This document shows, piece by piece, positions 3,353 through 5,928 of a DNA stretch of 64,000 nucleotides. The DNA is taken from contig NZ_CP097116.1 of NCBI RefSeq assembly GCF_024029335.1, positions 1,240,001-1,304,000 of the forward strand. The letters run 5' to 3'. The stretch is from Fructilactobacillus myrtifloralis (GTDB taxonomy: Bacteria > Bacillota > Bacilli > Lactobacillales > Lactobacillaceae). A program made the position numbers and the translations under genes. Every line of letters starts with the position of its first letter. The stretch's first letter is position 1. The notes beneath the pieces are model-generated. The model made no database searches. It was given only the letters and a program-made list of their open reading frames with translations, and was not told the DNA's origin.

Positions 3353-3386
3353 AAGTCTTTTAGTCATCTGACTAAAGGACTTTTTT
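3353..3386 (+). terminator. Terminator after cshA
   Basis: The arms AAGTC-TTTTAGTCA and TGACTAAA-GGACTT form a stem followed by six T residues, 10 nt after the helicase stop. Confidence 0.85.
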
Positions 3387-3446: not shown

Positions 3447-3475
3447 TTTTTAGAATTGGGCTAAAATGATATAAT
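3447..3475 (+). promoter_or_regulatory. Promoter of alr-mazF unit
   Basis: TATAAT at 3470-3475 is preceded at 17 bp by a weak -35 (TTTTTA, 3447-3452). It lies between the cshA terminator and alr. Confidence 0.6.
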
Positions 3476-3504
3476 GAGAACAATTCACGCACGGGGAGAA
3501 CATG

Positions 3505-4659
3505 ATGGTAATTGGAAAAAATCGAAACGGACAAATTCTCATCAATGAAACTGCGATTCGCCACAACGTCCAGCAGGCCGTGGACCGCTTACCACGCGGA
3601 ACGGAACTGTTTGCGGTCGTGAAGGCGGATGGCTACGGACATGGTGCGGTGGTTGCGGCCCGGCTCGCGAAACAAGCCGGGGCCACTGGCTTTTGCGTGG
3701 CCATTTTAGACGAAGCCATTCAGTTACGTGAGGCTGGGTTCGTCACGGAACCAATTTTAGTGCTCGGATTGACCGATGTAGCGCAACTCGCGTTGATTGC
3801 GAAGTACCAAATTACGGTGACGGTGGCGGACGTTGCGTGGCTGCACGACGCGCAACGGGTGAAACAGGCGCTGGGGCTTACCACCCCCATCAAGTTTTTC
3901 CTCGCTTTAGACAGTGGAATGGGGCGGATTGGGCTGCAGACACCAGCCGAGGTAGACACCTTTGTCCGGGATTACGCCACGCTACATCCTGATTTTGAGT
4001 GGCAGGGGGTGTATACCCACTTTGCAACGGCCGACAGTCCTGATCAAGAGTACTTCGACTTTCAAGTGGCTAATTTTCGAGAATTATTGGCCCAGTTTCC
4101 GCACCGACCGCGCTATGTTTCCGTAGCTAACTCTGCCACCGATTTATGGCACTCCATTCCAGAGGCTAATTTAGTCCGATATGGGGTGGCGATGTACGGG
4201 TTAAATCCCGCGGGAACTGCCCTGACCCCGCCATTTCCGCTGGTTCCAGCGCTCAGTTTAACCTCGGAGTTGGTCTATGTAAAACAGGTACAGTCCGGCC
4301 GTTCCATTGGCTACGGGGCGACCTATCAAGTTGACACTCCCCAGTGGATTGGAACGGTGCCGATGGGGTATGCCGATGGACTGCGGCGCGATTTGCAGGG
4401 TTTTTTTGTTCTAATTAACGGCCAACGGTGTCCAATCGTGGGGCGCGTTTGCATGGACCAGTTGATGGTAAAACTACCAAAGCACCTTCCGGTTGGAACT
4501 AAAGTGACAATCATTGGATCAGATCAGGAGCAAACCATTTCCCTTCAGGAGATGGCCGAGTATTGTCACACGATTCACTATGAATTAGCGTGTGGATTTT
4601 CAACCCGCGTCCCCCGGCTTTATTACGCAGGGGATGCCCAGACAAAGGGTTTGAGGTGA
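3505..4659 (+). CDS. alr: Alanine racemase
   Basis: A PLP-dependent cytoplasmic enzyme interconverting L- and D-alanine for peptidoglycan and teichoic acid D-alanylation. The PLP lysine is K40 in the signature AVVKADGYGHG. The second catalytic residue, a tyrosine of the C-terminal beta domain, is in SIGYGATY. The 384 residues match the family. Two consecutive ATG codons exist (3502 and 3505). 3505 is preferred because GGGGAG at 3493-3498 is 6 nt away, against 3 nt for the first. It is followed after 6 nt by a small MazE-like ORF and then mazF, the arrangement of Bacillus alr-ndoAI-ndoA. The holo-ACP synthase gene that often precedes alr in relatives is missing. Confidence 0.96.
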   Translation: MVIGKNRNGQILINETAIRHNVQQAVDRLPRGTELFAVVKADGYGHGAVVAARLAKQAGATGFCVAILDEAIQLREAGFVTEPILVLGLTDVAQLALIAKYQITVTVADVAWLHDAQRVKQALGLTTPIKFFLALDSGMGRIGLQTPAEVDTFVRDYATLHPDFEWQGVYTHFATADSPDQEYFDFQVANFRELLAQFPHRPRYVSVANSATDLWHSIPEANLVRYGVAMYGLNPAGTALTPPFPLVPALSLTSELVYVKQVQSGRSIGYGATYQVDTPQWIGTVPMGYADGLRRDLQGFFVLINGQRCPIVGRVCMDQLMVKLPKHLPVGTKVTIIGSDQEQTISLQEMAEYCHTIHYELACGFSTRVPRLYYAGDAQTKGLR

Positions 4660-4665
4660 TTTGAC

Positions 4666-4902
4666 ATGTTACACTATCAACTTCAACAGGCAACGCGAAT
4701 TCGCCAACCACTGGCACCTGCTTTAGCAACCACTAAGGTGCAACCTAGTGGGGAGCAATTTGCTGGGAGTGCCGTTCAAAATCAGCTGGCGTACGGCTAC
4801 CAATTAATGGCGGGCTTAAACCAACAAATTGTGGATGAATATTCTGCTTGTCAGTACGAAGCGATTTTTAACCTCCTAAAATATTACGATGAAAAGCTGT
4901 AA
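4666..4902 (+). CDS. Small MazE/EndoAI-like antitoxin candidate
   Basis: A 78-residue protein with ATG 4666 behind GAGGTGAT, lying between alr and mazF exactly where Bacillus carries the antitoxin ndoAI. Residues 48-70 (GYQLMAGLNQQIVDEYSACQ and the EA that follows) resemble, as I recall that sequence, the EndoAI C-terminal arm that wraps MazF: shared G, Y, M, A, N, I, E and EA at equal spacing. The first 45 residues do not look like the ribbon-helix-helix DNA-binding domain of EndoAI; they are Gln/Ala-rich. So it may neutralise MazF without binding DNA. The function is inferred from position plus this short similarity. An unrelated small protein remains possible. Confidence 0.6.
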   Translation: MLHYQLQQATRIRQPLAPALATTKVQPSGEQFAGSAVQNQLAYGYQLMAGLNQQIVDEYSACQYEAIFNLLKYYDEKL

Positions 4903-4934: not shown

Positions 4935-5288
4935 ATGAGTGAAACACCGATCAAGCGTGGCGACGTTTTTTTTGCCGATTTATCGCCAGTAGTTGGTTCG
5001 GAACAAGGGGGGTTACGCCCCGTTTTGATCATTCAAAACGACATTGGAAACCATTACAGTCCCACGGTAATTGTGGCGGCGATTACGGCTAAAATTAGTA
5101 AACCACGGATGCCAACTCACATTGCCATTGCGGCACGTCAAACCGGAATTGAACGGGATTCGGTTATTTTACTAGAACAAATTAGAACGATTGATAAGCA
5201 ACGACTACGGGATCAAGTTACCCACCTCCCTGATGGCATCATGGCCCGGGTTGATCAGGCACTCGCCTTGAGCGTGGGGATTGATTAG
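4935..5288 (+). CDS. mazF: MazF/PemK-family endoribonuclease toxin
   Basis: A 117-residue mRNA interferase of the MazF/NdoA family, which cleaves single-stranded mRNA at short sequence motifs. The N-terminal [21 protein letters not shown] and AAITAK segments are all present. Catalytic candidates are R28 and T51, equivalent to Arg25 and Thr48 of Bacillus NdoA. Length matches the family. ATG 4935 follows AAAGGTTA. It lies 32 nt after the MazE-like ORF and is likely co-transcribed with alr. In Bacillus this position also supplies the SigB-linked operon, but no sigB genes follow here. Confidence 0.93.
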
Positions 5289-5370
5289 TCGTTAGACTAC
5301 ATATGAAAACCAGAGGGTGGGCAACCAGTCTCTTTTTTGCATTAACTTAACGGAAAGAAGGATGGAACAG

Positions 5371-5928
5371 ATGAAAATGATTGTTGGGTTAGGAAACGTG
5401 GGAGAAAAGTACGCGGGAACACGGCATAATACTGGGTTTATGGCGGTCGATCAGTTTGCAAGTGAGCACCAAATTGCAATTACCCAGCAAAAACTGGGGG
5501 CCTTAGTCGGCTCTGGGGTAATTGACGGCGAAAAGGTTTTGCTGGTAAAACCAGTTACCTACATGAACGAATCCGGTCGAGCGGTTCAACCACTGCTGGC
5601 TTTTTATAAGCTCAGCCTTGCTGATTTGGTGGTCGTGTATGATGATATGGACCTGCACGTCGGGCGGATTCGGTTGCGCACGCATGGTTCGGCAGGTGGT
5701 CACAACGGAATTAAGAGTCTGATTGCCCACTTAGGGACGGATCAATTTAACCGGATTAAGGTCGGAACGGATCATCCTAAGCGCGAAAGCGTGGTGAAGT
5801 ACGTGTTAAGCCGGTTTAGTTTAGAACAACAAGGCCCCCTTGCAGAAGCGCTTGACCACACGACCCAGGCGCTCGACGAATGGGTGGCCGGTACTGATTT
5901 TCCTAAGTTAGAAAATGAATTTAACTAG
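5371..5928 (+). CDS. pth: Peptidyl-tRNA hydrolase
   Basis: An esterase that frees tRNA from peptidyl-tRNA that has dropped off ribosomes. The 185-residue protein carries the Pth signatures: GLGNVGEKYAGTRHNTGF with catalytic H19, the N of TYMNESG, D in VYDDMDL, and GGHNGIKS. I chose ATG 5371 because AAGAAGG (5355-5361) is 9 nt upstream. An extension to 5317 adds residues not found in the family. It is followed by mfd with a 25-nt gap, the conserved pth-mfd pair of Firmicutes. Confidence 0.96.
   Translation: MKMIVGLGNVGEKYAGTRHNTGFMAVDQFASEHQIAITQQKLGALVGSGVIDGEKVLLVKPVTYMNESGRAVQPLLAFYKLSLADLVVVYDDMDLHVGRIRLRTHGSAGGHNGIKSLIAHLGTDQFNRIKVGTDHPKRESVVKYVLSRFSLEQQGPLAEALDHTTQALDEWVAGTDFPKLENEFN

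Follow-up and report, generated by a model that had tools for sequence, protein, structure and literature searches.

In the usual description of type II antitoxins, the protein has two domains, and the balance between toxin and antitoxin is set by the half that binds DNA. The Bacillus subtilis antitoxin EndoAI (NdoAI, YdcD; PDB 4me7) carries an N-terminal dimerising ribbon-helix-helix (RHH) domain; each of its C-terminal helices blocks one EndoA dimer, and two of these units are linked into a hexamer through the RHH dimer (PMC6562991). Autoregulation has not been demonstrated in B. subtilis, and a palindrome points to it (PMC6562991). The Staphylococcus aureus MazE antitoxin is about 56 aa long, and the peptide MazE 23-56 binds to MazF in helical form (PMC4041440); published reports describe the mazEF promoter of this species as not autoregulated (PMC4041440, PMC4885055). 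AimX, a protein of the Bacillus phage phi3T, is MazE-like only in the arm region; its affinity for MazF exceeds that of MazE, and it blocks MazF toxicity (PMC10769878). Solo MazF genes are also known, for example in Myxococcus (PMC2701414).

A 78-aa open reading frame (ORF) lies between alr and mazF in the window, the 64,000-nucleotide stretch of the Fructilactobacillus myrtifloralis genome analysed here (Table 1). The ORF is a real gene, and with a probability of about 0.85 we read its product as the cognate MazE-type antitoxin of the adjacent EndoA-type MazF, descended from an EndoAI-like MazE through decay of the RHH domain. The original prediction of a MazE-like antitoxin that has the toxin-binding arm and no RHH is thereby upheld, on the strength of synteny in all ten Fructilactobacillus genomes, a genome match confined to the arm, a gap in RHH-profile scores, an AlphaFold model with its control, and the pattern of selective constraint.

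The 78-mer and EndoAI share a genomic position, downstream of alr and upstream of an EndoA-type mazF, as well as the arm motif and its spacing. In contrast, EndoAI is longer, carries the dimerising RHH domain (PMC6562991), and follows alr after a long spacer, whereas the ATG in the window lies 6 nt downstream of the alr stop codon. Because the RHH, a defining feature, is missing, we place the 78-mer outside the canonical EndoAI proteins and group it with the RHH-less, arm-only antitoxins represented by that of S. aureus. As with S. aureus MazE, its arm comes without an RHH and its gene adjoins that of an EndoA-type MazF near alr. However, about 18 residues precede the arm in the staphylococcal protein compared to 43 in the window, regulation by SarA and sigB has been reported there, and on the tree the staphylococcal RHH loss falls on a different branch from that of Fructilactobacillus. 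AimX (PDB 8anv chain C) is likewise short and related to MazE through the arm alone; unlike the 78-mer, it is encoded by a phage, has phi3T_93 as a second partner, and has no toxin encoded alongside it. A profile of the slot family matches 4me7_E at 2.2e-26, and a similar profile matches the staphylococcal-type antitoxin at 4.2e-8. The match of AimX to two alignments of bacterial slot antitoxins, A1 and A2 (1.3e-7 and 1.6e-6), lends independent support to the idea that AimX derives from, or mimics, a MazE arm. The 78-mer has no Pfam match to the SpoVT/AbrB swapped-hairpin N-domain of AbrB-type antitoxins such as E. coli MazE.

Table 1. Features of the alr-mazF locus, in window coordinates
Feature	Position	Strand	Evidence and remarks
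Terminator-like hairpin	3353..3382	+	13-pair stem then T run; inverted repeat 93% complementary; upstream of alr, where the DEAD-box helicase gene before it ends
Possible -10 box of an alr promoter, TATAAT	3470..3475	+	Weak; by eye, without a good -35; absent from the output of a consensus promoter scan
alr, alanine racemase	3502..4659	+	Pfam Ala_racemase_N 2.2e-65, Ala_racemase_C 8.5e-45; gene 1 of the alr-mazE-mazF group
Shine-Dalgarno (SD) sequence of the antitoxin gene, GAGGTGA	4653..4659	+	7-base SD match; overlaps the alr stop codon
Probable RHH-less EndoAI-type MazE antitoxin, 78 aa, ATG start	4666..4902	+	Profile match and genus-wide synteny
Antitoxin N-terminal tail, residues 1-30	4666..4755	+	Hypervariable, predicted disordered; occupies the RHH position
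Antitoxin single long helix (predicted), residues 31-77	4756..4896	+	AlphaFold
Antitoxin conserved toxin-binding arm (putative), residues 44-66 (GYQLMAGLNQQIVDEYSACQYEA)	4795..4863	+	Arm profile 31.9 bits
mazF, EndoA-type mRNA interferase	4935..5288	+	Pfam PemK_toxin PF02452 3.5e-35
pth, peptidyl-tRNA hydrolase	5368..5928	+	Pfam Pept_tRNA_hydro 1.5e-66; downstream neighbour, outside the pair

Arm homology in the alr-mazF slot

The assignment of the ORF to the slot of Bacillus ndoAI holds across the genus, the same gene order being seen in 10/10 Fructilactobacillus genomes. The ORF ends 32 nt before mazF, whose product retains R28 and T51, matching R25 and T48 of EndoA in the column table. The best PDB relatives of this MazF are the mRNA interferases 4hke, 4mdx (EndoA), and 4me7 (EndoA), at about 2e-50 to 2e-49. 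A second MazF-family toxin is encoded in the same genome at about 998-999 kb (antitoxin and toxin ORFs at L214:1111-1389 and 1471-1821), with an upstream AbrB/SpoVT-like antitoxin (MNALKLKRFGNSHGIIIPK...) of the E. coli type, recognised by eye.

The EndoAI-like arm was also correctly recognised in its motif and spacing, and its numbering was off by four, the arm occupying residues 44-66 and not 48-70. The motif G-Y-x-x-M-A-x-x-N-x-x-I-x-x-E, followed by E-A, has the same spacing in the window as in B. subtilis EndoAI (PDB 4me7 chain E), and its first part arose in 0/5000 shuffles of the 78-mer. Scored against a profile of RHH-bearing Lactobacillaceae arms, the window arm stands far above the best of 5000 shuffles (31.9 vs 10.4 bits). 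A profile built from RHH-bearing relatives only, with zero Fructilactobacillus sequences, found a single matching place in the 1.46-Mb genome, namely the 78-aa ORF (E=1.9e-4), and the match covers model positions 52-81 of 92 only, which is the arm. This Fructilactobacillus-free search is the most independent test of the proposed arm homology. Could the ORF be spurious, or encode an unrelated protein with a chance similarity to the arm? The 78-mer has no match in Pfam or NCBIfam, none in the PDB by phmmer, and none by Foldseek with its model, the last being expected for a single helix. Against chance stand the orthologues in the same slot throughout the genus, the margin over the shuffles, and the sole genome match; the shuffle test and the whole-genome search refute this explanation, and we give it practically no weight.

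Searches with the 78-mer matched all 10 genus members and, more weakly, other Lactobacillaceae; the matches lay between alr and mazF at every fetched locus except L016 (a different, long reading frame). When alr-mazF loci were taken from the family and the class and the slot ORF was extracted from each, the arm motif was present at 175/200 loci. Among 157 distinct arm-bearing proteins, the arm residues Gly1, Tyr2, and Met5 never vary and Asn9 is found in 156; the extraction criterion itself was Gly, an aromatic second residue, and Met, which leaves Asn9, Ile12, Glu15, and the E-A pair as the independent part of this conservation. An arm profile made from Bacillus-type sequences only gave 2.7 bits for the window compared to a shuffle maximum of 4.5, and did not separate the arm from the shuffles. 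Because this profile misses the window, the link from the window to EndoAI is transitive, through lactobacillar intermediates and gene order. The Bacillus-only profiles for both RHH and arm were too narrow, and family-wide profiles were used instead.

Absence of the RHH domain from the N-terminal half

The N-terminal half was expected to lack an RHH, and none was detected by Pfam, by a purpose-built RHH profile, or in the AlphaFold model. The silence of Pfam alone proves nothing, because RHH-bearing controls also score weakly (a Bacillus-type control matches HicB_lk_antitox at 0.0025, below the cut-off). The iterated RHH profile divides the slot proteins into those with at least 22 bits and those with at most 7.6 bits, the window scoring -1.5 bits and all 10 genus members scoring negative. 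AlphaFold, given a 23-row alignment, modelled residues 1-30 of the 78-mer as disordered (pLDDT about 50) and residues 31-77 as one helix, with a mean pLDDT per block of ten of 77 at residues 31-40 and 95-98 from residue 41. The RHH-bearing control, the antitoxin of Agrilactobacillus fermenti, was modelled with helices H12-25, H29-43, and H45-80, and Foldseek matched its N-terminal region with three RHH proteins, CopASO, SvtR, and CopG, at weak E-values and, for CopASO, with a high match probability.

The two halves of the antitoxin also evolve differently. In Fructilactobacillus pairs, the nonsynonymous rates of N-half and arm are 0.065/0, 0.176/0, and 0.49/0.017; in RHH-bearing pairs, they are 0.038/0.034, 0.07/0.086, and 0.24/0.245, the halves being broadly alike. 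The relaxed constraint is limited to the Fructilactobacillus N-half and is supporting evidence short of a formal test, coming from few pairs, some of which share a genome. The distance from the alr stop codon to the arm is 115-174 nt in the genus compared to 182-577 nt in RHH-bearing Lactobacillaceae (p=7e-7, kinship uncorrected); therefore, both the RHH domain and the spacer shrank.

If the ORF instead still encoded an RHH diverged past recognition, the protein would dimerise and repress the operon. Members that look RHH-like by eye do score near zero with the Bacillus-only profile, so that profiles can miss a diverged domain, and an alignment with Lentilactobacillus suggests remnants of helix B in the N-half of some Fructilactobacillus proteins, one of which (L007) reaches 10.7 bits with 0/500 shuffles as high; the window itself is non-significant in this respect. 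However, the iterated profile splits the two groups cleanly, the modelled tail has neither a strand nor a helix pair where the control shows both RHH helices, the 43-residue N-terminal part contains prolines at positions 15, 18, and 27, and the N-half is under relaxed constraint. We consider a concealed RHH unlikely on these grounds, and a strongly diverged N-domain may dimerise in another way.

That the tail is no decayed remnant and has taken on a new function, such as binding a different partner, marking the protein for a protease, or contacting DNA in an unusual way, is somewhat more probable than a concealed RHH and still improbable. The tail length of 40-50 residues across the genus exceeds the 10-18 residues of the staphylococcal type, and the dN/dS of the N-half in close pairs, about 0.3-0.45, is relaxed yet below 1. 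Residues 1-30 nonetheless lack a motif common to the genus, similarity being limited to the stretch that immediately precedes the arm, and neither Pfam nor NCBIfam gives a match.

Predicted neutralisation and regulation

By analogy with the EndoAI helix, the C-terminal helix of the 78-mer, with its core at residues 44-66, would sit in the intersubunit groove of MazF, where it would cover the RNA-binding surface and block cleavage. We infer that the 78-mer binds and neutralises MazF from its homology with three proteins, EndoAI, S. aureus MazE, and AimX. Two precedents, S. aureus MazE 23-56 and AimX, show that binding or inhibition of MazF does not require the RHH. An RHH-less antitoxin would not be expected to dimerise, to bridge two MazF dimers, or to bind an operator; the loss of dimerisation and of autoregulation is a weaker deduction than binding. 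The window arm differs from EndoAI and AimX at contacts named in PMC10769878, with L47 in place of AimX E20 and L41 in place of M14, and of the four helix residues listed there as common to AimX and MazE (M14, Y18, E20, and M21) it keeps two, as Y45 and M48.

The decay of the arm elsewhere in Fructilactobacillus, shortened in L112 and L010 and degenerate in L013, counts against an active antitoxin, and the alr-adjacent pair may be losing function in this genus. In the extreme case, the gene would be a decaying, pseudogene-like remnant and MazF would no longer be restrained, as the arms of F. florum (L112) and L013 and the many lineages that kept MazF without an antitoxin might suggest. Yet in the window lineage the arm codons show 0 nonsynonymous vs 7 synonymous changes between L004 and L005, and 1 vs 12 between L003 and L004, and in the window the reading frame is intact and the SD sequence strong. 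A pseudogene is thus quite unlikely, marginally more so than a concealed RHH, and an arm-only antitoxin with a decayed RHH remains our preferred reading.

The overlap of the SD sequence with the alr stop codon suggests that translation of the antitoxin gene is coupled to the end of alr, and its expression probably follows the alr transcript. The expectation that the window operon is not autoregulated is plausible, a reasonable inference from the lack of an RHH and the closeness of the ORF to alr. The alr-antitoxin junction of the window contains no palindrome and no operator-sized space. Spacer palindromes at p<=0.05 occurred at 3/51 RHH-bearing, 0/10 Fructilactobacillus, and 4/46 Bacillus-type loci, which is the chance level even where the RHH is present. 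A palindromic spacer operator was dropped as a marker of autoregulation, as it did not separate RHH-bearing from RHH-less loci. UACAU sites, considered as a means of post-transcriptional feedback, were absent from the antitoxin gene and mazF, with one in alr; this candidate was also rejected.

Antitoxin decay across the family

The family-wide decay of the antitoxin is more interesting than the window ORF itself. On our reading, Fructilactobacillus keeps the neutralising half only, and the same loss is found on many branches of the family; no description of RHH loss in lactobacilli was found in the open-access papers searched. A 145-row tree of Alr plus MazF implies 14 changes of RHH state, of which well-supported branches force no fewer than 9. 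RHH-less arm proteins are found in Fructilactobacillus, Apilactobacillus, Levilactobacillus, and Secundilactobacillus, and class members (family f17) are also RHH-less, their 47-57-aa antitoxins fitting Staphylococcus and its relatives in length, sequence, and gene order. Such repeated losses represent natural experiments on the need for autoregulation in a working mazEF pair. The shortest lactobacillar antitoxin, in the Levilactobacillus clade (L049), has 52 aa and is nearly the arm alone, resembling the staphylococcal form.

Other lineages, including Lactiplantibacillus, Enterococcus, and Isobaculum, have no arm ORF between alr and mazF, and the label for its absence changes 8 times on the tree, at least 6 of them forced. 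The arm-less loci include, in Lactobacillaceae, L055-L059, L066, L068, L070, L072, L091, L092, L101, L103, L104, L107, L108, L127, and L129, and beyond them L133, L138, L159 (Enterococcus), and L184 (Isobaculum); L204, where alr and mazF lie 1.6 kb apart, is also counted among the 25. All 25 MazF proteins at these loci retain the catalytic Arg and Thr. Purifying selection on mazF is strong there, its dN/dS being as low as beside an antitoxin, for example with a dN of 0.004 and a dS of 1.1, the pair L127/L129 being left out of the comparison. An antitoxin profile run over 19 arm-less genomes found nothing significant elsewhere (one match at E=0.23) and recovered 5/5 controls, with the limit that such a profile could overlook a diverged arm in a protein of 30-50 residues.

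Tentatively, and at somewhat less than even odds, these patterns may reflect a stepwise erosion of EndoAI in the Bacilli, in which the RHH is lost many times, the arm goes next in some lineages, and the gene is lost last while EndoA stays as a housekeeping endoribonuclease, and the Fructilactobacillus pair would be an intermediate. If true, EndoA in these bacteria would not be a toxin in need of an antitoxin. Whether chromosomal MazF in Firmicutes is a toxin at natural levels is debated, and the antitoxin-less lineages with an intact-looking EndoA make this question testable.

Several single loci show the antitoxin gene in different states. The alr-mazF gap of L052, in the Secundilactobacillus clade, holds a stop-interrupted remnant (...TESLITGYE), apparently a fossil antitoxin that breaks off where the arm begins. 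In F. florum (L112:2232-2420, and likewise in L010), the antitoxin ends after 19 arm residues, without the E-A pair, beside an intact mazF. The Fructilactobacillus locus L013 has a degenerate arm (GYDSMKRISQKIVAEY) that scores 4.5 bits with the arm profile and is the sole one of the 157 without the Asn. On the toxin side, MazF column 54 (window numbering) is Ile in 175/175 proteins beside an arm-bearing ORF and Ile, Met, Val, or another residue in the 25 without one, relatedness being uncorrected; this position is possibly an antitoxin contact that has been freed from constraint.
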